Positions 1-12,065 of a DNA stretch of 12,065 bases are shown piece after piece. The position numbers and the translations under genes were made by a program. Every line of letters starts with the position of its first letter. Positions within the stretch are counted from its first letter, which is position 1. The DNA lies in assembly GCA_016928995.1 (NCBI GenBank), contig JAFGJS010000008.1, forward strand, positions 1 to 12,065. The letters run 5' to 3'. The notes beneath the pieces were generated by a model. That model saw nothing but the letters and a program-made list of their open reading frames with translations. It searched no databases and was not told the DNA's origin. The DNA comes from Candidatus Sumerlaeota bacterium. GTDB taxonomy: Bacteria; Sumerlaeota; Sumerlaeia; JAFGJS01.

Positions 1-72
1 CTGTTGCTGCTCGAACTCGCGCGAAGAAACGACGACTGGGACGAAATCTGGAGCGAACGCTTGGTAGCTTGA
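1..72 (+). CDS. C-terminal end of an unidentified protein (partial)
   Basis: The frame that starts at base 1 is open for 23 codons and closes with TGA at 70-72. The visible residues are rich in Leu at the start and then mixed charged and aromatic (two Trp, several Asp, Glu and Arg), which looks like a normal protein tail and not random frame. Too little is present to name a family. It is the only plus-strand gene in the window and converges on the minus-strand operon, whose last gene stops 483 bases away. It lies on the outer side of the tRNA-Ala fragment at 203-247, so if that fragment is an integration scar this gene belongs to the original chromosome. The call rests only on an open frame and plausible composition. 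Confidence 0.5.
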   Translation: MLLLELARRNDDWDEIWSERLVA

Positions 73-185
73 TCAAGATGCGCCCGCTTTGATATCAATG
101 TGAAGCGCAATATTGAATAAATAATTGAGGCATGTAAATATGATGTGATTTGATTGATCATGTCAATACAGATCGCACCATAAGT

Positions 186-284
186 GCCGTAAAATCAAGG
201 AATGGTGGAGGTAAGGGGGATCGAATCCCTGACCTCTTGACTGCCAGACCGATTTAGAGGCCTTGAAATCATTAGACTTACGGC
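186..284. repeat. Imperfect inverted repeat bracketing the tRNA-Ala fragment
   Basis: The left arm has GCCGTAA at 186-192 and TCAAGG at 195-200. The right arm has CCTTGA at 261-266 and TTACGGC at 278-284. Each pair is an exact reverse complement, with unequal spacers inside the arms. The repeat encloses the whole tRNA fragment (203-247). A second small dyad lies inside the right arm: GATTT at 251-255 against AAATC at 266-270, around the palindrome AGGCCT at 258-263. The arms could be recombinase or accessory-protein binding sites of an attachment region, or simply a stem-loop. The pairing is seen directly; any function is inference. Confidence 0.5.
203..247 (-). pseudogene. Truncated 3' half of tRNA-Ala(GGC); probable attachment-site scar
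   Basis: On the minus strand this reads, in order, an anticodon loop CTGGCAG (anticodon GGC), the 3' anticodon strand TCAAG, variable region AGGTC, T arm with TTCGATC loop, acceptor strand TACCTCC, discriminator A and encoded CCA. That order and wording match the 3' half of a bacterial tRNA-Ala(GGC). The expected 5' strand of the anticodon stem (CTTGA), the D arm and the 5' acceptor strand are absent: the sequence upstream of the loop on this strand (plus 248 onward) is unrelated. The T stem has A instead of the near-invariant G at position 53, facing C61, which suggests decay. Homology that starts exactly at the anticodon loop and runs to CCA is typical of att sites left by tyrosine-recombinase integration into tRNA genes. 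The intact tRNA would be expected to the right, beyond this window. Confidence 0.75.
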
Positions 285-554
285 GTTCAAGAAATTGAAT
301 CAAACGCATTTATGCACAATCGGGACACGCTGACGACACATTCAATACACGCTTAGTACACATCAAAATTTTGAATAATTTTGAACGACAATCTTTATGC
401 GTTCAATTCTTATAATGTCCAACCCCCGCTCCACAAGCGACAGGAGAGACACTGAATAGATCCTGCCTTCAGAATTGATTGCTGATCACATCCTAGAAAC
501 GCTCATATCAACAAATCCGGAACGACTGTAAACTGGAAATGTCATTCAGTCTGC

Positions 555-1992: not shown

Positions 1993-2673
1993 TCAATTGT
2001 CCTTTGGAAAAGTGATGGGCACGCGCATACGAAACCGCACGGGCTTGCCGTTGCGCTGACCCGGTTCGAACTTCCATTTTTTAACGGCGTCCAACGCCGG
2101 TTTGTTGAAGACGGAGTCCGTCGATTTTTGCACGATAGGATTTTCGACCCGGCCGTCCTTGTTGACGATGAACACAATGTAAGCCGTGCCAGGCGCCTTC
2201 TTGCGCACGGCTTTGCCGATCATTGGTCCGGGCTGATAAACCACACGAGGCTTCTGATCGAGATCGGCGATGGAGAAAAGCTGTTCCAAATCCTCGCTTT
2301 CCGCCATGGCCGTGTTCAATTTCAAGGCGAAATCGCCTGCGACCAGTCCGCCGCTCAAACCCTGGTTCAAAAGCATCTCCATCTGAGCAATATCGAGCGG
2401 TTGCGTCTCCTCGGCCAGTTCGGGAGGTTTCTCTTCCGGCTCCGGCTCTTCTTCCGGCTCCTCCTCTTCCGGCGGCGGAGGAGGAGGTTCGAGTTGAGCC
2501 GTATCCATGGTATGCAATTGCAAATCCGTGTCTGGCGGCTTGCTAAGCGTCTGCATCAACGGCAAGACCATAAAAAAGATCAGCGTCAATCCCGCCGCGC
2601 CGACGACGACAAGAAAACGGTGCAACACGTTTCGCAGCAGCCGGGATGCTTTGTTGTGGATGCGATAACTCAT
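1993..2673 (-). CDS. tonB: TonB energy transducer
   Basis: A 226-residue TonB. It has a short basic cytoplasmic N terminus, a single membrane anchor at about 20-40, a Pro/Glu-rich periplasmic stretch at 62-88, a helical linker, and a C-terminal TonB domain at about 147-224. The domain shows the alanine-valine-lysine-lysine-Trp200-lysine-phenylalanine core followed by Pro204 and a Gly-Lys-Pro-Val turn, which is typical of the family. It would carry proton-motive energy from ExbB/ExbD to the TonB box of the outer-membrane receptor encoded upstream in the operon. The Pro-rich stretch is short and acidic (Pro-Glu, not the Pro-Lys blocks of E. coli TonB), as in the short TonB2-type proteins. It begins 11 bases after the exbD stop, with no strong ribosome site, so translation is probably coupled. 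Confidence 0.95.
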   Translation of the reverse strand: MSYRIHNKASRLLRNVLHRFLVVVGAAGLTLIFFMVLPLMQTLSKPPDTDLQLHTMDTAQLEPPPPPPEEEEPEEEPEPEEKPPELAEETQPLDIAQMEMLLNQGLSGGLVAGDFALKLNTAMAESEDLEQLFSIADLDQKPRVVYQPGPMIGKAVRKKAPGTAYIVFIVNKDGRVENPIVQKSTDSVFNKPALDAVKKWKFEPGQRNGKPVRFRMRVPITFPKDN

Positions 2674-2684
2674 AGTTTTGTCAC

Positions 2685-3101
2685 TCAGTTTTTGCTTTGG
2701 CGCGTGGCCACGCTGACCTTGACCGCGCCCGCCAATTTGGCTTCGTCGATGATGCGCACGAGCATCCCGGATTGCGCGGCGGTGTCCGATTGCACAATCA
2801 CGGGCAGGTCTTCTTTTTGCAGCATGCGCTTGACCAGAGGCTGCACGCCGCTGACGCCGATCTCGCGCCCGCCATAGACCACTTCGCCTTTCTCGGTCAG
2901 GGCGATCATGATGCTGTTCTTTTCGAGTTGCACGGATGAGGCGGCCTGGGGCTTGTCCACCTCCACGCCGGTCTCATCCACAAAAGTCGTAGTGACGATG
3001 AAAAAGATCAGCAGGATAAACACGCAGTCGATCAACGGCGAGATATCGATGCCCGTCTCGTTATTGTCATCGGCGGATGATTGTCGAAATCGTCCCATCA
3101 T
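2685..3101 (-). CDS. exbD: ExbD biopolymer transport protein
   Basis: A 138-residue ExbD/TolR-family protein. It has a short polar cytoplasmic N terminus, one membrane helix at about 22-42 and a periplasmic domain from 45 to the end. The helix carries Asp25 in an Ile-Ser-Pro-Leu-Ile-Asp context. It matches the essential proton-handling Asp25 of E. coli ExbD in both position and surroundings. ExbD works with ExbB as the proton channel that drives TonB. The gene overlaps the upstream exbB by four bases (ATGA at 3098-3101), so the two are translationally coupled. Two Met codons stand in tandem at the start, and either could be used. Confidence 0.97.
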   Translation of the reverse strand: MMGRFRQSSADDNNETGIDISPLIDCVFILLIFFIVTTTFVDETGVEVDKPQAASSVQLEKNSIMIALTEKGEVVYGGREIGVSGVQPLVKRMLQKEDLPVIVQSDTAAQSGMLVRIIDEAKLAGAVKVSVATRQSKN

Positions 3102-3766
3102 GTCCTCGCTTTCTTCTGGCTTTGCTCTTTATACAGTTTCTGTGCGCAGACTGTCTCCAGATGCGCCAGAAAGCCTTTATAGCGCTCTAGTTTCCGGGCC
3201 AGCTGATACTGGAAAAACAGCCCCGGCAGTGCGATCACCAAACCCGTTTCTGTGGTCACAAGGGCCTCGGAAATGCCTCCGGCGACCAGCGCCATAGTTT
3301 GATCGCCCCCCCCGCCGCCGGCCAGCGCGGCGAACGTAGCGAGCATGCCCGTCACGGTTCCGAGCAATCCCAGCAAGGGCGCGGCCCCGACGCAGATTTT
3401 CATCACGCGCAGGTCGCGCTCGAAAGGCGCGATTTCCGTCGCGCGCAGCTCCTCGAAGTTGACTGCGGCTTCCTTGAGCGACGCGGCGCCAACAACAAAA
3501 TCCAGCAGATCGCCGATCGGACCGCGCCGCTCGTTCGGGTGATTGATCCAATGACGCCAAGTTTTTTCGCGCACGCTGGAAAAGCCTTTACCGGTGAGTT
3601 TGAGCCGGACATGCATGCCGAGTCCGAACATCGCCAGAGCGATGCAGGCGATGGCGATCATGGCCCAGCCGCCGGAAAGCCAGATTTCAAACGCCTGGCT
3701 CCAGAGCGAACCAAGCTGATCGCTCAGCATCTTATAATCCATGGTCGCTGTAATCATTGCGCTCAT
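3098..3766 (-). CDS. exbB: ExbB proton-channel protein (short, second ExbB)
   Basis: A 222-residue MotA/TolQ/ExbB protein with three membrane helices at about 33-51, 122-146 and 165-186. The second helix holds the Ala-Pro-Leu-Leu-Gly-Leu-Leu-Gly-Thr core with Thr137 in the place of E. coli Thr148. The third holds Ser-Glu-Ala-Leu with Glu167 and Thr172 in the places of Glu176 and Thr181. These are the residues thought to line the proton path, so the protein should be active. It starts with a four-base overlap (ATGA, 3763-3766) on the upstream TtpC-like gene and ends with another on exbD. Later ATGs at codons 4, 9 and 13 are possible but would break the overlap. A run of eight G (coding strand) lies at 3306-3313 and encodes part of a five-glycine stretch, residues 150-154. 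Confidence 0.96.
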   Translation of the reverse strand: MSAMITATMDYKMLSDQLGSLWSQAFEIWLSGGWAMIAIACIALAMFGLGMHVRLKLTGKGFSSVREKTWRHWINHPNERRGPIGDLLDFVVGAASLKEAAVNFEELRATEIAPFERDLRVMKICVGAAPLLGLLGTVTGMLATFAALAGGGGGDQTMALVAGGISEALVTTETGLVIALPGLFFQYQLARKLERYKGFLAHLETVCAQKLYKEQSQKKART

Positions 3767-5628
3767 CGCTCCATGACTGCCGCAGGCACGCGTTGCGGCC
3801 GGGATTGCTTTTTCGATCCGTTCGAACCCGCTTCAACGAGCTCGCCCGAATCCATGTCATAGTCGTCCTCATCTTCCAGCGCATCATCTACAGCATCGGA
3901 TACGTCTTGTTTATCGGAATCCGTGATTGCGAGATCTTCAGCGCTGACCGCTGCCGTCGCATGCCGGTGCGTTTTGCTGATTTGGTTGGCCAGCGAGATG
4001 GCGGCTTTTTCCATCTGGTCGATCACGCCGCGAGCCTTGCGCGATAAAAACGCATGCAGCAAGAGCGAGGGAATCGCCACGATCAGTCCGAATTCAGTGG
4101 TGATCAGCGCTTCGGAGATGCCGCCGGAAAGCGTCTTCACGTCGCCCGAGCCGAAAACCGTGATCAGTTTGAACGTGTTAATGATGCCAGTCACGGTGCC
4201 CAGCAATCCCAGCAACGGCGCTGATGCGGCGCTGATCGAGATGAAGGAAAGCATGCTGTTCAGCCTGAAGCGCGTGGCCAGCACTTTTTCATACATCACT
4301 TCCTCGATCAAATCGCGTGGTTCGTCGATATGCTCCACGCCAATGGCCAGGGTCTGCCCCACGGGCGAATAGCCAAAGGTCTGTTGAAGCAGATAGATCA
4401 ACAGGCTCCACACAAGTCCGATCACGCCGAAACCCAAGCCGCTGAGCAGAAATAGTTGCACGACCGGCATGCTTGCGATTTGGGATTCCTCATAATCCGG
4501 CCAAATCCAAAGGATCGTTGCAGGAACGTATTGATAGATCAGACAGGCGATGCCGCAAAAAGCCAATCCAGCGACAGCCCCACGCGCGGCGCCACTGAAT
4601 ATCCTTGGACGCGCTTTCATGATCGACGCGGCGTGTTTTTTGAGTGAAATGACGTCATTCTTCGCGACTGCATCCAGCAATGCTTTAATTTGTTGATTAG
4701 ACGGCATGCGCAGGACGAGGAAAGTGAGGAACTTGTACAGCGCGACGATCAAAGCAAGACCGGCCAGCGTGAAAATGGGATACATCACCAGGCCGCCCTT
4801 CTTAATGTGCTCGAGCAAAGTCTCTTGCGTCGTTTCGATCTTGTGCGCATTGCCCAAGGTCGGATCGAGCGGGAAAGTCCCTCTGCTATCATGGATCAAA
4901 TTCGCCGCGGCCAGAGCGTCTTCGGGCAGATTAAAGGGCACGATGGAAGGTTCGAGTGAACCAAGGCGCTGCTCGACGCTGCCGACGTGCTTTCCATCCG
5001 CGGATTGAAAAATCGCGGCAGGCCCGACCAGCACAAAGGCTCCTTGTCGGATCAGCCCATTGTCATCCACAGCGGATCCAGGAAACGCCGCACCACTCAA
5101 GGCTTCGTGCAGTCGATTCAGCGAAGCCGTCAAGAGACCGGCCTGCGCCTGATAGATTTCTTCCTGCGAAAGACTTTTATTTTCCGGCGCAAGTTTCGCG
5201 GTTTCCAGCACATCTTCATACTGCTGGATCTCAGCAATGTGCAGGCGCGATTCGAAATTGCGCGTATACTCGCTCAACAGATTCGAGAGATAGAGCGCCT
5301 CTTCCCGGCGCTTCTCGATTTCGGTTTTCAGATTGGTCAGGTCCAGCGTGCGGCTGTCGAGCAGACGTGTCGTCTGCTGATACTTGAGCCGCACGTCGCT
5401 CAGCTCGTCTTCCAATTCATTGAGCCTGCGGCTGAGCGGAATTTTTTCAGCGGCCGTTTGTTCGTTGAGTTTTTTCAGTTCGGCCAGGCTGTCCGCCAGC
5501 CGCTGTTGCACCGACTCCGCCGCCTGATCGAACGATTTTTCAGCGGCGGACAATGGCATGGGACGATATGCCAAAAGCGCCATAGCACCAACGAGCGCGA
5601 GTGCAATAATGTGTTTTTTTGTTTTCAT
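3763..5628 (-). CDS. TtpC-like MotA/TolQ/ExbB protein with periplasmic coiled-coil domain
   Basis: The product has 621 residues. It has a signal peptide (1-29, cleavage after Ser-Ala-Ala or nearby), a long coiled-coil region at about 32-135, and a further periplasmic part to about 275. The membrane domain follows: helix at 279-306, then an extra helix pair at about 348-375 and 388-414, then the conserved ExbB core at 459-530. The core has Thr478 in the Gly-Thr-Val-Thr motif, and Glu506 and Thr511 in the Ser-Glu-Ala-Leu-Ile-Thr-Thr motif, matching E. coli Thr148, Glu176 and Thr181. This layout is that of TtpC, the extra component of TonB2 systems, but longer. The added helix pair inside the cytoplasmic loop and a strongly acidic tail (about 570-600) followed by a basic end are unusual. 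A GGAGGG site at 5639-5644, ten bases upstream, supports the start. Confidence 0.92.
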   Translation of the reverse strand: MKTKKHIIALALVGAMALLAYRPMPLSAAEKSFDQAAESVQQRLADSLAELKKLNEQTAAEKIPLSRRLNELEDELSDVRLKYQQTTRLLDSRTLDLTNLKTEIEKRREEALYLSNLLSEYTRNFESRLHIAEIQQYEDVLETAKLAPENKSLSQEEIYQAQAGLLTASLNRLHEALSGAAFPGSAVDDNGLIRQGAFVLVGPAAIFQSADGKHVGSVEQRLGSLEPSIVPFNLPEDALAAANLIHDSRGTFPLDPTLGNAHKIETTQETLLEHIKKGGLVMYPIFTLAGLALIVALYKFLTFLVLRMPSNQQIKALLDAVAKNDVISLKKHAASIMKARPRIFSGAARGAVAGLAFCGIACLIYQYVPATILWIWPDYEESQIASMPVVQLFLLSGLGFGVIGLVWSLLIYLLQQTFGYSPVGQTLAIGVEHIDEPRDLIEEVMYEKVLATRFRLNSMLSFISISAASAPLLGLLGTVTGIINTFKLITVFGSGDVKTLSGGISEALITTEFGLIVAIPSLLLHAFLSRKARGVIDQMEKAAISLANQISKTHRHATAAVSAEDLAITDSDKQDVSDAVDDALEDEDDYDMDSGELVEAGSNGSKKQSRPQRVPAAVMER

Positions 5629-5646
5629 GATCTTCGTTCCCTCCGG

Positions 5647-6456
5647 TCAGTTGATTTCAAGCGGGAGTTGAACGAAAGATGCCGCTTGTTCATTTTTTAG
5701 AATCGCAATCGCATTGGCGATTGGCTCCGCGAATTCATTGCGCTGTTCCCAAACCCATCCCTCGTCTGTCGCATGCCCGATTCCCGCAACAGCCCCATTG
5801 GCGCCGACATAATACGCCTGACTGACGCCGAGATACAGCACGGCGACCTCGGCCGATGTTCCGTCGGGCAATGCGCGCACCTCGCTGGCGACGGTGATCT
5901 CGCGGTTGGCTTTGTTGAGAAAGTTCAGGATTCCCACGACGTTCTGAAAGCGCTGCGACAAGGACAGCTGCGTCTCATCGGGATTGTCGGGCAATTGTTG
6001 GCTCAAGAGATTGACGCGTTCCTGAAGCGACTCAGGCAGCCGGTTGAGCAAGTCTTTTGTTTGAGTCTCCAGCTCAGCCAGAATACCAGCCAGCGCGGAT
6101 GACGCGGTTTTCATCGTTTCATTCTGTTCCAGCAATTCAACGCGCTTCTTGTCCGCTTCGGCGATGCTTTCCTCCGCGTTGTGAATTTTCCCCTTCAGCG
6201 CTTCGATCTCCTGCTGCACAAGTTCAATGCGCTGATTGAGCGTCTCCTTGGCCAGCGCCAAGTCGCGTTTTTCCTTGGCAATCACGCGTTGAGTTTCCAC
6301 CCATTCGGAAAGCGCTTCGCGTGTCTGTTCAATTTGGGCTTTGACTTCCTCGGCGGCCCTTGCCGGAGAAAGCGGAAGCATGCCTGTGCAAATCAAGATC
6401 AATGCGCATCCCCATAAACGGCGCCCGCGCCGCCGTTGAGCAATTGTAATGTTCAT
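5647..6456 (-). CDS. DUF3450-type periplasmic coiled-coil protein
   Basis: A 269-residue protein with a basic N terminus and hydrophobic stretch (1-34, cleavage after Ala-Arg-Ala), so it is predicted to be periplasmic. Residues 36-135 form a long charged coiled coil. The C-terminal half has the Val-Leu-Tyr-Leu-Gly segment near 205-210, followed by Ala-Tyr-Tyr, a glycine-rich turn and a Trp-Val-Trp stretch at 234-236. These features fit DUF3450, the family that regularly precedes the TtpC-like gene in TonB2-type clusters. Its biochemical role is not established; a periplasmic partner of the TtpC coiled coil is a reasonable inference. The ATG has AAGGAG at 6466-6471, nine bases upstream and overlapping the receptor stop codon. 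The gene ends 18 bases before the next. Confidence 0.85.
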   Translation of the reverse strand: MNITIAQRRRGRRLWGCALILICTGMLPLSPARAAEEVKAQIEQTREALSEWVETQRVIAKEKRDLALAKETLNQRIELVQQEIEALKGKIHNAEESIAEADKKRVELLEQNETMKTASSALAGILAELETQTKDLLNRLPESLQERVNLLSQQLPDNPDETQLSLSQRFQNVVGILNFLNKANREITVASEVRALPDGTSAEVAVLYLGVSQAYYVGANGAVAGIGHATDEGWVWEQRNEFAEPIANAIAILKNEQAASFVQLPLEIN

Positions 6457-6469
6457 GAGTCGAGACTCC

Positions 6470-9400
6470 TTAAAATGTAATGGTCATTCCCAGTGAGTAT
6501 TCCACACCTTTATGAAAAGAGGTTTTCGTCACGTCTTCGCCGATATACTCCGAACGATACACCGTCTCGATCAGAGAATCCGTGACATTCTTGGCGGCGA
6601 GTTTGACCGAGAAATGATCGCCGAATTTCTTTTTCACACTCAGGTTCAACGTGCCGTACTCCTTAGCGTATACATTGGGCACATAGTTGCCCTTGGACTG
6701 TCCGGCGCCGGCGATCAACGTATCGCCTTGCACCGTGTAATATGCGCCAAGTTCCGTGCCTTCCAACCAATCGATGTTCCATGCGCTTAAATCATACGTG
6801 AGAAAAACATTGTAGAGATACTCGGGCGCCTGGGTCATGTCGCGCTTCGGCATCGGCGCCAGGATATTTTCATCCGCGAATTCCTCGGCCTCGTCTTCCG
6901 GCAGCGTCACCTCCGATTCGATGAACGTCGCATTGGCTCTAACGTTCAGCCCTTCCAGCCGCTCCCAAAGCCGCCCGATGTCTTGCCGGATTTCAAATTC
7001 ATAACCGCTCAATTCGCCCTCGGGGTAATTCACCGGCGTGGTGTAGGGATAACTGCCCAGCCGCTGCACGTACTCAATTGGGTCCGTGATGTCCTTGCTG
7101 AACCAGGAAGCGGAAATCAGACCGCCTTCATACGGCGTGTAATCAAGCCGCAGGTCGTAGTTCTTCAATGCACTCATCCGCAGCGCTGGATTGCCGATGA
7201 AGACATCCGCGCCGAGAAACTCCTGCTGCTGAATCGGGGTGAGTTCCTTGAAGGTCTGCCGTGCCACGGTCTCGCTGTAATTGCCGCGCAATTTCAGTTG
7301 CTTGAACGGCTTCAGTTCAAAGCCGATGGCGGGCAGCATGTCGCGCTGCTCGTAATTCACATCCGCGTCGCCAGGCTCCATGTCGATCGGCCCCTTGGCG
7401 CCTTCCGGAAACCAATTCACATCGTCTTCCGGGATGTTGACGATGCTGAGCTCCGTCTCCTCATAACGCGCGCCGCCGATGACCTTGAAAAAGGATGTCA
7501 GGGGAAAATCCGCCATCCAGTACCAGGCCGAGATGTTTTGTACGCCGCAATAATCAACATCGATTTCCGCGGCGGTGATCGGATGATCTTCATCCGGAAA
7601 ATATGCGCTCCAGAATTCTTCCCAGGCGCCCTCATAATTGGCAGCGCTGTCGTTGAAATTGCTGTAGGAGTCCTGGTTGTATTCACGCGTCACTTCATCT
7701 TTGAAGACGCCGAACTTCACGTAGCCTTCCGTGCCGGTCCACTGTTCGAAAGGAAACTTCACGTCAACGGCATGTTGATCGCTTTCCTCAATGATCTCTT
7801 TGTATATACGCTGCAAATTCCCGATGGTGAAGTTGGCCGTCGGCTTGAACGGATAAAACGTTTCGTCGGTCGTGTAAGCAGACACATATGGCGGGCGGCC
7901 CGGATAGTAATACGACGGCCACCATAACGAGCCGAATTGCCGTTTGTCCGGCTGATACATTTCAGCGATGCTTTTCGCGGTATACCAATCCACTTCGGGC
8001 TGCAAAATGGTGAAAAAACCATCAATGCCGAATTCAGGAATCGGAATCACGTGGTGACCGCTGAATTGCGACAAGCGCGTCACGCGCTCCGTATAGGTCA
8101 GCGTCTCCAGCCTGAGATAGGGCGCCGAGTCGCGATTTTGATTGCCGATCGCCGTCGGATCATCGGCGTTGTATCCAGGAAAATAATATTCCTTTCCGCG
8201 CGTATCCTCGGCCATCGTCGCCTCGTCTTCCGCGGTGCGAGTATACAGGTTGACCCACTTGAGTTCTTGATCAGCAACCTCAATGCCCAGCACCGTCAGC
8301 CAGCCCAGTTTGATCTCCTCGCTCCCCTGCACCACATCGAACAGTGAAGTTTTAAAATCGCCGTTTTCCGGATCGGTATTCGAGGGCGCGCCTTGGGTGT
8401 ATTGCGGAGTCATTGGTTCGCCAGGATCGACAACCCAGTATTTATCGTCGATCATGTCGTCCACGTATGACGAGTCCCGCTGCCAGAAGAAACTGCCCCA
8501 ACCGCCGATCCGAGTGTTGTCGAACACATCAAACTTGTCGCCGATGGCCAGCGACCATTTATAGTCGATGGGCGCATCGCCATACATCACTCCCACCGCG
8601 CCGTCCCAATTGCCGCCGATGTTTTCTTCCTGCACATCCCGGCCGCCGTCATCCTTGGCCCATTGGCGGACACCCCCGCCTTTATAGGTGAGAAAATCCG
8701 TGACCTGGACATTGTAACTCGTTTGTGTGCTGAGTTTGAAAATCCGCTTGTCCGGCACGCCCTTCAGCACCACATTCACCGCGCCGCCGGATGCGTCGCC
8801 TTGTTGATCAGGCGTGAACGTTTTGCTGACTTGAATGCTCTCTATCGCCTCGGAGGGAAACTGATCCAATTCGACGGCGCGCTTATCCACGTCCGCAGTG
8901 GGCAGACGCACGCTATTCATTTGAGAACTCACATATCGATCCGGCAAACCGCGAATCACGGCGTATTTGCCATCCTGCACCGTCGCCCCGGAAACCAACT
9001 TCAAGGCGCTGGCCGCGTCTCCCGCCCCAGCCTGACTCATTAAATCGGCGCTGATCGAATCCATCAGCGCCGGGCTTTCCAGCCGGAGATCGAGCAGAGC
9101 CGCCTCCGTTCCGCCGCCAATTTGCACATCCTGTACTATGAACTCTTCCATTTCCGTGAACTCTCCGGATAGCGATGCGTTTAGTTCGGTCAACTGCCCT
9201 TGCGTAACCACGACGTCGGTTTTGACGAAATTGGCGTAGCCGTTTTTGGAAAACAGCACAGTGTATTTTCCCGGTTCAAGCCCGCCAAACGAGTAATTGC
9301 CATCCTCTGACGCCGTGATTTTTTGCCCTGTCTCGACAATCGTGATTTCCGCCGCGGCCAATGGCGCGTCGAAATCCTTGTCATACACCACGCCTCGAAT

Positions 9401-9487
9401 GTTGCCTGCCTGCTGCGCCTCTGCCGGCGCCAACGACAATGTCAATGCGGCGCATATCATCCAGCAACCCAAGCTCCATCTCACCAT
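6470..9487 (-). CDS. TonB-dependent outer-membrane receptor with carboxypeptidase-regulatory-like N-domain
   Basis: A 1005-residue receptor. Residues 1-24 form a signal peptide ending Ala-Glu-Ala. Residues 28-107 form a beta-sandwich of the carboxypeptidase-regulatory-like type (Gly-Val-Val-Tyr-Asp, Gly-Asn-Tyr-Ser-Phe-Gly-Gly-Leu, Gly-Lys-Tyr-Thr-Val motifs). A probable TonB box (Glu-Glu-Phe-Ile-Val) lies at 114-118. The plug follows at about 130-245, with Ile-Arg-Gly-Leu-Pro-Asp-Arg-Tyr and Asp-Ala-Ser-Gly-Gly-Ala-Val-Asn-Val, and a beta-barrel runs to a terminal phenylalanine. It should import a ligand too large for porins. The plug wording resembles large receptors linked to polymer or chelate uptake; the substrate is unknown. 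The start overlaps the preceding gene's stop by seven bases (ATGGTGA), so it is translationally coupled. It is the only receptor in the operon and is presumably served by the TonB system encoded downstream. Confidence 0.97.
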   Translation of the reverse strand: MVRWSLGCWMICAALTLSLAPAEAQQAGNIRGVVYDKDFDAPLAAAEITIVETGQKITASEDGNYSFGGLEPGKYTVLFSKNGYANFVKTDVVVTQGQLTELNASLSGEFTEMEEFIVQDVQIGGGTEAALLDLRLESPALMDSISADLMSQAGAGDAASALKLVSGATVQDGKYAVIRGLPDRYVSSQMNSVRLPTADVDKRAVELDQFPSEAIESIQVSKTFTPDQQGDASGGAVNVVLKGVPDKRIFKLSTQTSYNVQVTDFLTYKGGGVRQWAKDDGGRDVQEENIGGNWDGAVGVMYGDAPIDYKWSLAIGDKFDVFDNTRIGGWGSFFWQRDSSYVDDMIDDKYWVVDPGEPMTPQYTQGAPSNTDPENGDFKTSLFDVVQGSEEIKLGWLTVLGIEVADQELKWVNLYTRTAEDEATMAEDTRGKEYYFPGYNADDPTAIGNQNRDSAPYLRLETLTYTERVTRLSQFSGHHVIPIPEFGIDGFFTILQPEVDWYTAKSIAEMYQPDKRQFGSLWWPSYYYPGRPPYVSAYTTDETFYPFKPTANFTIGNLQRIYKEIIEESDQHAVDVKFPFEQWTGTEGYVKFGVFKDEVTREYNQDSYSNFNDSAANYEGAWEEFWSAYFPDEDHPITAAEIDVDYCGVQNISAWYWMADFPLTSFFKVIGGARYEETELSIVNIPEDDVNWFPEGAKGPIDMEPGDADVNYEQRDMLPAIGFELKPFKQLKLRGNYSETVARQTFKELTPIQQQEFLGADVFIGNPALRMSALKNYDLRLDYTPYEGGLISASWFSKDITDPIEYVQRLGSYPYTTPVNYPEGELSGYEFEIRQDIGRLWERLEGLNVRANATFIESEVTLPEDEAEEFADENILAPMPKRDMTQAPEYLYNVFLTYDLSAWNIDWLEGTELGAYYTVQGDTLIAGAGQSKGNYVPNVYAKEYGTLNLSVKKKFGDHFSVKLAAKNVTDSLIETVYRSEYIGEDVTKTSFHKGVEYSLGMTITF

Positions 9488-10737
9488 GGATTCCCTAACT
9501 CCTCGCTGCTGATTTGATGAATCCGTGTTCGCAACTCTTCGCTCGGTTCAAATGCATTCGCCGCCATTGACACGCACGTGGCGGACAGATCCTCGGCGCG
9601 CGGCCGCGAATTGGGATTGATCATCCCCGCTTCAATGGCCTTTGCGTAAACCGTCTGGGCGGATTCAGCATCGCCCATGGCTTGATAGGCTTCGGCCAGA
9701 GGCACAAGCGCCTCTGCACGGAATATGTTGACGATTGTTTCGCCGTCAGCGTCGTAGCGCTCCAGCGCGGAACCCAGTATCTTGCGTGCGCCATCCTGAT
9801 CGCCAGCCAGTCCGCGCAGACGCTCCGTTTTGCCAATCAGCGCAAGGTAATGCTCTAAAGGCCACTGACAGTCATCCAGCGGTTGCTGGATTTCATCGAC
9901 GAGTTCCAACGCCTTGGCCTGATCGCCGTGATCCAGCGCGAATTCGGCCAATTCCATCAACGACTGCAACCGGACAATGATCGGTAGTTTGTTCCATGTC
10001 GTCTTGATCTTTTGTTCCGCCTGATCGCGCTTCTCATGATCCTCGTAATACTGGTTGAATAACTGAGCACAGGCATGGTGGACGTTTTTCAGAATATCAA
10101 AATCGCCTTTCGCAATGAGCCGGTCCAGTTCCTCCATTTGCGCATCGAAGGACTTTTTATTGCCAGCAATCGCCTTCGCATCGGCCGCTTTGCCAGTTTC
10201 CGATTCCACAACATTCGACGCGAACTCTTCCGCCTGCGTGTTTTGTCCCAATAAAGTGTAAGCGCGCGCGATCTTCACCCGGATGCGATCCCGGCGCCAA
10301 TCTTCGGCCTTTTCGGACTCCTCTTCCGCCAGCGTCAGATAATGCCGGGCTTTTTCCGTAAAGCCATGCTGGGCGCAGTAAAACGCCAAATCCGCATAGC
10401 AGGCGCCCCGCCGCCAGTTTTTAATCTGCTTCGCGTAGCCGCCGGCCCTGATAGGCTGATCCAGTTCCAAACATGCCATAACCACCGCTTCCTGTGCCTT
10501 CGAACGATCCTTAATGTGGGGATTGACCGGGATTTTTGTGGCGGTGGAAAAAGCCAGATCAAGCAGATCACCCTGATATTTCGCAAGCGAAGCATCGACA
10601 AGAACGCCGGATGATTTTTTTTGTCCGCTTGTATTTCCGCGGCAACTGAATGAAAACAACAACGGAACGCATGCGCAGAGCAGATAGAAGCCGCATAAGA
10701 GATAAAAGATACTTGAGTTTACCTTGAGATTTTTCAT
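9481..10737 (-). CDS. TPR-like helical-repeat protein, membrane-anchored or lipoprotein
   Basis: A 418-residue protein and first gene of the operon. I do not recognise a named family. The N terminus is hydrophobic at about 9-30 with cysteines at 15, 21, 23 and 32. Leu-Cys-Ala-Cys23 resembles a lipobox, while Cys32 follows Ser-Phe-Ser and fits less well, so it is either a lipoprotein or a protein with an uncleaved anchor. The rest is mostly helical and contains TPR-like pairs near 114-140, 152-176, 257-282 and 342-370. It ends inside the receptor gene (seven-base overlap), so it is translated together with the receptor, and it probably helps assemble the receptor or handle its ligand. The start is preceded by AGGGCGG a few bases upstream, a weak ribosome site. 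Confidence 0.85.
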   Translation of the reverse strand: MKNLKVNSSIFYLLCGFYLLCACVPLLFSFSCRGNTSGQKKSSGVLVDASLAKYQGDLLDLAFSTATKIPVNPHIKDRSKAQEAVVMACLELDQPIRAGGYAKQIKNWRRGACYADLAFYCAQHGFTEKARHYLTLAEEESEKAEDWRRDRIRVKIARAYTLLGQNTQAEEFASNVVESETGKAADAKAIAGNKKSFDAQMEELDRLIAKGDFDILKNVHHACAQLFNQYYEDHEKRDQAEQKIKTTWNKLPIIVRLQSLMELAEFALDHGDQAKALELVDEIQQPLDDCQWPLEHYLALIGKTERLRGLAGDQDGARKILGSALERYDADGETIVNIFRAEALVPLAEAYQAMGDAESAQTVYAKAIEAGMINPNSRPRAEDLSATCVSMAANAFEPSEELRTRIHQISSEELGNPW

Positions 10738-10759
10738 ATTTCCGCCCTAAAGAAAAATT

Positions 10760-10783
10760 GATGACAGAACTGCTCATGTCATC
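10760..10783. promoter_or_regulatory. Inverted repeat upstream of the operon, possible operator
   Basis: GATGACA (10760-10766) and TGTCATC (10777-10783) are perfect reverse complements separated by ten bases. The centre-to-centre distance of 17 bases places the halves on roughly similar faces of the helix. The site ends 22 bases before the ATG of the first operon gene, in the 5' leader or promoter region. It could bind a dimeric regulator controlling the receptor and TonB operon, or form a small RNA hairpin close to the start codon. No convincing -35/-10 pair was found nearby, so the promoter itself is not located. Confidence 0.4.
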
Positions 10784-10808
10784 GTCGAGTGACTTCGTTT
10801 TTTGTTTT

Positions 10809-10843
10809 AACTGATGGCAGGGCTTTTAACCCTGCCATCAGTT
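10809..10843. terminator. Perfect 14-bp hairpin between the beta-helix gene and the operon
   Basis: The left arm at 10809-10822 (AACTGATGGCAGGG) and right arm at 10830-10843 are exact reverse complements with a seven-base loop. It lies 17 bases beyond the stop codon of the minus-strand gene ending at 10860, the expected place for its terminator. The T tract (10842-10846), however, follows the hairpin on the plus strand. On the minus strand the hairpin is followed by AAAAC and more A. As a classical intrinsic terminator it therefore points the wrong way for its neighbour. It may still stop or stabilise the upstream transcript, or block antisense transcription. Confidence 0.6.
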
Positions 10844-10859
10844 TTTACCGCTTGATCCT

Positions 10860-12065
10860 TTACTGATACTGATTCCATGTCGCATTCGGCACGGCGTTCG
10901 GAGCGCCGTAGGAGAGATTGATAAAGCCGAAGGCGTCTGCGGCTGTCCATATGTCGACCCAGTTCTCACCCTCTTGAGAGCTGAAACCGCCGCGGTATTG
11001 CGCCGGGGTGAAGAAACCGTCATCCGGAGCGGTGTTCACGCTGTTCAACGCGTCGTTCGCCGGCAATGGATTGATGACCGACACTGGAACCATCACCTTG
11101 CCGCCTTTAACCACCGCGCCGCCGCGTTTCAGATACTTAATGGGCATCGCGTCCGCAGTGACATTGTTGTTCGCCGCATCACGCACACCGCGCGCGTCAG
11201 CCTCGGTGTAGGCGTTGCTGGCCAGGTTGTTGTAGAACACGCAGTCGCTGATCTCGGCGAGCATACCCGAGGTCTGAGCCTGATACAGAGCCGCCGGATT
11301 ACCTGAGCCGATGTTGACTGTCGAGGTGACCGAATACGCCGTGTTCCACGTGTCTTCCCAGGACAGCGTGCCGTTGTAGCCGTAGCCCTGCGAGCCGTCG
11401 CCGTCCAGGTTGTCCGGACGTACCAGCTGCTCGCCCAGTTCCATGAAGATGCAGTTGCGATACTGCGCGCGAAGGTTGTCACGCCAGGCCGTGCCGCCGT
11501 CGCCGTCCACCGGCTGGCCCACAACCGTGAAGTTGTAGATCGCAGTGGTCGTCACCGGCTGAGCGTCCGAATCCTCAGCGCCGTCGCCCTCGAAGCAGTT
11601 GTCGCCAACGCCGGAGCCCTGGCTCGCGTCAAGGCTGTAGCCCTGCACGATCAGACCGAACTGCGCCTTGCCGCGCCAGCCCTGGTCGAAGTCAAAACTG
11701 TCATCGCCCACGTTCCAGATCGAAACGTACTTATAGTTGACCGTGCCGCCCCACGTCTCGATGCCGTCGTCCACGTTGTTCATGATTTCGACGTGATCCA
11801 CGTCGGTCGCCCGGCCGATGCCGCCCATCGACAGGCCGTTGAGCTCGTTGGCCAGCGCGATCACCTTGCCGCCGTAACGGATCGACAGATAGCTGATCGA
11901 GCCGCTGTCGTCATCGTCATCCGCGCCGCCATACAGCGCCGCAGCGTCGGTCAGACCTTCCATCTGCGCCGTATTGAGGCCCGTCGGAGTCGCCGTGTTG
12001 CCCGTCTCCAGCGAGTCGGAAATCAGCGCATTGCCCATGATTGTCAGGTTGCCCCATTCGTTCGC
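10860..12065 (-). CDS. Secreted beta-helix-like surface protein linked to TonB receptors (5' end missing)
   Basis: The frame is open to the right edge, giving 401 visible C-terminal residues; the start and any signal peptide lie outside. The visible part opens with a Trp-Gly-Asn-Leu-Thr-Ile-Met-Gly strand motif. An Asp run follows at 49-53 before Ser-Gly-Ser-Ile-Ser-Tyr-Leu-Ser-Ile, then Leu-Asn-Gly-Leu-Ser-Met-Gly-Gly-Ile-Gly-Arg (75-85), Asp-Asp-Gly-Ile-Glu-Thr-Trp-Gly-Gly (99-107) and Gly-Asp-Asp-Ser-Phe-Asp-Phe-Asp (120-127). Near the end are Asp-Asp-Gly-Phe-Phe-Thr-Pro with Tyr-Arg-Gly-Gly-Phe (348-361) and Trp-Val-Asp-Ile-Trp-Thr (369-374). I recognise this pattern from large secreted proteins of Bacteroidetes, PVC bacteria and gammaproteobacteria that often sit beside TonB receptors. 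A right-handed beta-helix with Asp-rich, possibly calcium-binding turns is likely; its function is unknown. No C-terminal sorting domain is visible. Confidence 0.8.
   Translation of the reverse strand, partial: ANEWGNLTIMGNALISDSLETGNTATPTGLNTAQMEGLTDAAALYGGADDDDDSGSISYLSIRYGGKVIALANELNGLSMGGIGRATDVDHVEIMNNVDDGIETWGGTVNYKYVSIWNVGDDSFDFDQGWRGKAQFGLIVQGYSLDASQGSGVGDNCFEGDGAEDSDAQPVTTTAIYNFTVVGQPVDGDGGTAWRDNLRAQYRNCIFMELGEQLVRPDNLDGDGSQGYGYNGTLSWEDTWNTAYSVTSTVNIGSGNPAALYQAQTSGMLAEISDCVFYNNLASNAYTEADARGVRDAANNNVTADAMPIKYLKRGGAVVKGGKVMVPVSVINPLPANDALNSVNTAPDDGFFTPAQYRGGFSSQEGENWVDIWTAADAFGFINLSYGAPNAVPNATWNQYQ

Follow-up and report, generated by a model that had tools for sequence, protein, structure and literature searches.

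Identification of a displaced tRNA-Ala(GGC) half

The 45 bp at positions 203-247 (minus strand) are probably the displaced 3' half of a host tRNA-Ala(GGC) gene, left behind by tyrosine recombinase-mediated integration at the anticodon loop. Such scars are common and well understood, and this one adds a further example, from a class that has received little study, of an element integrating at the anticodon loop of a tRNA gene. The window (the whole stretch of DNA analyzed here) is the entire contig C24, 12,065 bases of a 4.55 Mb MAG with 161 contigs and 92% completeness. Comparisons within the class used 39 genomes (this MAG and 38 others, none of them from the same genus, family or order).

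Read on the minus strand, positions 203-247 have the sequence CTGGCAGTCAAGAGGTCAGGGATTCGATCCCCCTTACCTCCACCA and agree at 44 of 45 bases with the 3' half of an Ala(GGC) consensus, while the next-best site in the window agrees at 23 and the best of 200 shuffles at no more than 26. This consensus is a composite of the anticodon arm of L047/L040 and the acceptor of L129/L052; compared with single intact Ala(GGC) genes, the fragment shows 3-6 differences in most cases, and the closest of these genes differ from it at at least three positions. It contains an anticodon loop (CTGGCAG, with anticodon GGC), the 3' strand of the anticodon stem, a variable loop (AGGTC) and a T arm, followed by the 3' strand of the acceptor stem (TACCTCC), A73 and CCA. 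The acceptor base U70 is present, which fits the G3-U70 alanine identity pair. The sole mismatch to the consensus is a G53 to A change, which the sequence-only reading had correctly reported and which turns the invariant G53-C61 pair into A-C.

The boundary of the fragment is sharp. BLAST identity to the Ala(GGC) genes of five relatives (G014, G016, G023, G012 and G006) stops exactly at window position 247, which corresponds to tRNA position 32, the first base of the anticodon loop. The 31 bases lying 5' of the fragment share at most eight positions with known 5' halves, no better than shuffled sequence (P 0.65). These results bear out the sequence-only reading in its description of a tRNA-Ala(GGC) 3' fragment running from the anticodon loop to the CCA, with the 5' half replaced by unrelated sequence. 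Neither ARAGORN nor Rfam called a tRNA at the fragment, as expected for only half a gene. The fragment avoids conserved coding domains, lying between the coding regions at 1-72 and 555-2177, and the Ala(GGC) half occurs only once in its MAG. Based on the consensus match, the break at position 32 and this single copy, we annotate 203-247 (minus strand) as a displaced, non-functional tRNA-Ala(GGC) 3' half (positions 32-76, G53A).

Other identities for the fragment were rejected. It is not a tmRNA end, as the tmRNA of this MAG (contig C29) has another 3' end, and it is not part of a split or intron-containing tRNA, as no 5' half was found in the MAG (including the window) or in the sequence immediately preceding the fragment. 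The half tRNA is flanked by an inverted repeat (GCCGTAA/TTACGGC) that is no better than chance.

Probable integration at the anticodon loop

The integration scar would have arisen from an integrative element that carries, as its attachment site, a copy of the tRNA sequence spanning the anticodon loop through the CCA. A tyrosine integrase would recombine such an element into the host tRNA-Ala(GGC) gene, with the crossover inside the anticodon loop. One end of the integrated element would then have a complete tRNA, rebuilt with the 3' half that the element brought, and the original 3' half of the host gene would be displaced to the other end, where it would be free to mutate (G53A). Because the half faces left, the element would lie, or would have lain, to the right of the half tRNA. 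The way in which these elements insert implies, as the sequence-only reading had proposed, an element on the right, with host DNA on the left. Parts of the model that we infer are the integrase, the intact tRNA partner, how far the element extends and in what state it is today. We consider integration to be the best explanation because the half is clean, the break falls at the anticodon loop, the 3' end is intact and the same MAG contains a second scar with its intact partner.

Truncated tRNA genes often mark attR sites (PMC9897764). Among the 3,919 islands found with Islander, 3,760 have a 3' fragment, and the integration site is centred on the anticodon in 2,083 (PMC4383910). Like these tRNA-gene islands, the window carries a 3' fragment starting at the anticodon loop and oriented as expected if an element lies 5' of it (PMC4383910). 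Islander looks for an end fragment of a tDNA rather than an internal one, and 203-247 is such an end fragment (positions 32-76, to the CCA). Unlike the Islander islands, this case has neither an intact tRNA partner nor an integrase in the sequence examined, and it would fail the Islander filters. The partner sought by Islander is an intact cognate tDNA on the same replicon, in the same orientation and 2-200 kb away, and the integrase sought is a non-Xer tyrosine integrase inside the interval; the 12 kb window covers one end of such an interval. A close parallel in length is the attR of PYG1 of Pyrococcus yayanosii (44 bp flanking repeats; PMC9897764), a fragment of almost the same size that also derives from an element in a tRNA gene. 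For PYG1 both ends and the element are known, while the tRNA-Ala case offers one end only.

A second scar at a tRNA-His gene

The same MAG contains a 3' half of a tRNA-His(GTG) gene at C86:10046-10093 (minus strand; L255, G000:C86), with 45 of its 48 bases identical. An intact tRNA-His gene is found at C86:13210-13286 (minus strand), so that the half lies 3.1 kb downstream of it, in the expected island geometry. This is the sole other tRNA fragment in the 1.82 Mb of the MAG that was screened. The 3.1 kb interval has a lower GC content (0.48 versus 0.563) and encodes an ECF sigma factor and an unassigned 472 aa protein. No integrase was found on contig C86, including this interval. Like the tRNA-Ala half, the tRNA-His half starts in the anticodon region, is displaced and mutated and obeys the same polarity logic; unlike it, the tRNA-His half has an intact partner 3.1 kb away, whereas no partner of the tRNA-Ala half was found in the MAG. 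Providing indirect support, the tRNA-His scar suggests that this genome has undergone events of this type, whose remnants can be devoid of an integrase.

A 16-base word, TTGAACGCCGYAAGTC, is present both in the window (275-290, minus strand) and in L255 (10009-10024, minus strand), and these are its only copies in 1.82 Mb of the MAG. It is located on the 5' side of the tRNA-Ala half and on the 3' side of the tRNA-His half. An equally good match was obtained in 7 of 1500 shuffles, and the shared word is possibly due to chance.

Genes of the TonB2-type cassette

To the right of the half tRNA, the window encodes nine proteins on the minus strand, in the order secreted beta-rich protein, TPR protein, TonB-dependent receptor, DUF3450 protein, TtpC-like protein, ExbB, ExbD, TonB and TPR protein. 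The first two genes (9481-12065, with the 5' end of the secreted protein gene cut by the contig end) are both conserved beside the receptor in relatives. The receptor (6470-9487) matches PF00593 and PF07715 and has a carboxypeptidase-regulatory-like N-terminal domain (PF13620). It is followed by the TtpB-like DUF3450 protein (PF11932) and the TtpC-like MotA/TolQ/ExbB protein (PF01618) at 3763-6456, and by ExbB (PF01618), ExbD (PF02472) and TonB (PF03544) at 1993-3766. The last gene (555-2177) encodes a protein with Pfam TPR matches in the TtpD position; gene order is conserved here in relatives, and the true start is probably inside the ORF.

TonB2-type systems are defined by a contiguous TtpB(DUF3450)-TtpC-ExbB-ExbD-TonB-TtpD(TPR) cluster (PMC6957404). 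By Pfam matches and gene order the window contains this cluster, an import system of a type already known. The order DUF3450, TtpC-like, ExbB, ExbD, TonB and TPR is shared with the Vibrio TonB2 and TonB3 operons, and the TonB3 operon also starts with an outer-membrane receptor (PMC6957404). Unlike the Vibrio operons, the window has a second TPR gene and a secreted beta-rich protein gene ahead of the receptor.

The secreted protein (window 10860-12065; L103 4329-6146) is conserved next to the receptor in 16 loci, with identities of 55-72%. It had no sequence match in Pfam, NCBIfam or the PDB. Its structural model, of medium confidence (pLDDT 64), is beta-rich, with only weak matches to right-handed beta-helices. 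The TPR protein gene at 9481-10737 overlaps the receptor start, and a possible lipoprotein signal is present in its product here and in several relatives. By analogy, this protein is placed like a putative SusD partner of a SusC-type receptor.

The cassette as possible cargo

A stronger form of the integration explanation, rather than an alternative to it, is that the scar belongs to a real island carrying the whole nine-gene import cassette as cargo. On positional grounds only, we regard this as a tentative proposal that is somewhat less probable than its opposite. The cassette does lie on that side of the scar where the element would be, and its distribution is patchy. All nine genes are grouped in Planctomycetota (anammox bacteria among them), parts of the set are present in one Verrucomicrobia MAG and one Deltaproteobacteria MAG, and gene order varies somewhat among related loci. 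Within the class, the receptor is found over most of its length (above the level of fragments) in only 3 of 39 genomes; this distribution fits either transfer or repeated loss. In a Phycisphaerae MAG (L103), a tyrosine recombinase gene (2979-3797, minus strand) is located approximately 0.5 kb from the cassette, and because this gene lies near it, the cassette could still be mobile.

Several results argue against the cassette as cargo. Its GC content (0.556) is near that of the other MAG sequence (0.547), i.e. of host composition, and the closest known relatives of the receptor are only approximately 63% identical. In a concatenated tree the window groups weakly with two class relatives (support 82/76); a quick tree gave 99.7 for the window with class relatives, and a receptor-only tree leaves this grouping open. 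None of the related cassette loci has a tRNA gene nearby: in G034, for example, the cassette is on a 47 kb contig (C107) without a tRNA, while Ala(GGC) is on C41. Finally, no mobility gene lies between the scar and the contig end. The sequence-only reading had combined an integrated island with the TonB operon inside it. The integration mechanism stands as the best explanation, given the clean half and the second scar, but the operon as its cargo is not established, and neither is the movement of a complete import system as one cassette, given the host-like GC content and the related loci without tRNA genes.

A broader proposal, and one that we think improbable though worth stating, is that the nine-gene module, with its own TonB2-type motor, spreads as a block among Planctomycetota and other phyla and was delivered here by an element targeting tRNA-Ala(GGC). 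If the far end of the element enclosed the TonB cassette, a receptor could move with its own energy supply. Such joint movement of receptor and motor, if true, would help to explain the patchy spread of the gene set across phyla.

Insertion sequence at the left contig end

The first 85 bases of the window (plus strand) are the end of a multi-copy insertion sequence, comprising the last 23 codons of a presumed transposase (1-72) and a 13 bp terminal inverted repeat, TCAAGATGCGCCC (73-85). This end also closes at least seven other contigs of the MAG, with 100% identity in most and 95-98% identity in two. The opposite end of the element, with the same 13 bp repeat, was found at other contig ends; the terminal repeat is also recorded as GGGCGCATCTTGA for window 1-85 and the ends of at least seven other MAG contigs. 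Matching 8 bp target duplications were identified in two contig pairs. Multiple copies, terminal inverted repeats and target duplication were thus all observed, from eight contig ends with no whole copy read. The duplication partner of the C24 copy was not found. Contig breaks in this MAG also occur at several other families of repeats.

Because 1-85 is the end of a multi-copy insertion sequence, the contig breaks at a repeat and the 1-72 gene is unusable for a test of synteny. The sequence-only reading had taken 1-72 for a host gene; it belongs to the insertion sequence and was discarded as a host synteny anchor, and earlier weak peptide matches of 1-72 were due to chance. Between the insertion sequence and the 3' side of the half tRNA is the stretch 86-202, which is cut by the insertion sequence, would be host DNA in the integration model and had no match elsewhere in the MAG sequence examined.

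Searches for intact tRNA-Ala(GGC) and integrase genes

Rfam identified 48 tRNA genes in the MAG, including Ala(TGC) and Ala(CGC). An intact Ala(GGC) gene is absent from this 92% complete, 161-contig assembly, both in the Rfam results and in direct pattern searches for the whole gene or its 5' half. As an intact Ala(GGC) is present in 30 of the 39 class genomes, one would expect this genome to have it too, and a partner that has gone unseen is plausible. Since the gene is kept in these genomes, and in 18 of the 20 that are of good quality, its absence more likely reflects sequence missing from the MAG than a true loss.

If the loss were true, the half could be the product of tRNA decay, in which an ordinary deletion or insertion (for example, via the many insertion sequences) broke the sole tRNA-Ala(GGC) gene and Ala(UGC) reads the alanine codons GCC and GCU. 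The presence of Ala(TGC) and Ala(CGC) without an intact Ala(GGC) fits this explanation, as does the insertion sequence ending only 117 bp from the fragment, and E. coli tolerates deletion of alaWX (both of its GGC genes), with a growth defect as a result (PMC11480407). We nevertheless judge tRNA decay to be quite unlikely: the break falls exactly at the start of the anticodon loop, the insertion sequence sits on the other flank of the fragment, Ala(GGC) is retained by 18 of the 20 class genomes of good quality and the tRNA-His scar shows a site-specific pattern in the same genome.

The integration explanation calls for a tyrosine integrase, and none was found in the window. In the MAG, the tyrosine recombinases found were limited to one XerC-like gene and one broken remnant of an integrase, both on other contigs, and no intact non-Xer integrase was found in the MAG. 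The remnant, the broken C-terminal part of a tyrosine integrase, is at a contig end (L134, G000:C147, 169-288, minus strand). A search with only two recombinase queries detected no integrase-like ORFs at distances of up to approximately 1.5 kb from intact Ala(GGC) genes in the class. Viral contigs contained no exact match to the Ala(GGC) half, and the right end of the contig could not be joined to another contig among 120 stretches of the MAG (approximately 1.8 Mb).

Sequence between the half tRNA and the operon

It is highly improbable that the half tRNA has been kept for a role at the RNA level, for example as a signal for processing or terminating the operon transcript. It is on the same strand as the operon, approximately 310 bases past the last stop codon, and positions 180-292 fold better than shuffled sequence (z -2.9), but its acceptor stem has no partner strand, G53A disrupts its T-stem, no T-run terminator is located at it and the operons of relatives are without a nearby tRNA gene. 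Positions 248-554, which separate the half tRNA from the 3' end of the operon, contain no 5' half and gave no other match. This intergenic stretch has a low GC content (0.41) and, if the integration explanation is right, is on the island side of the scar.
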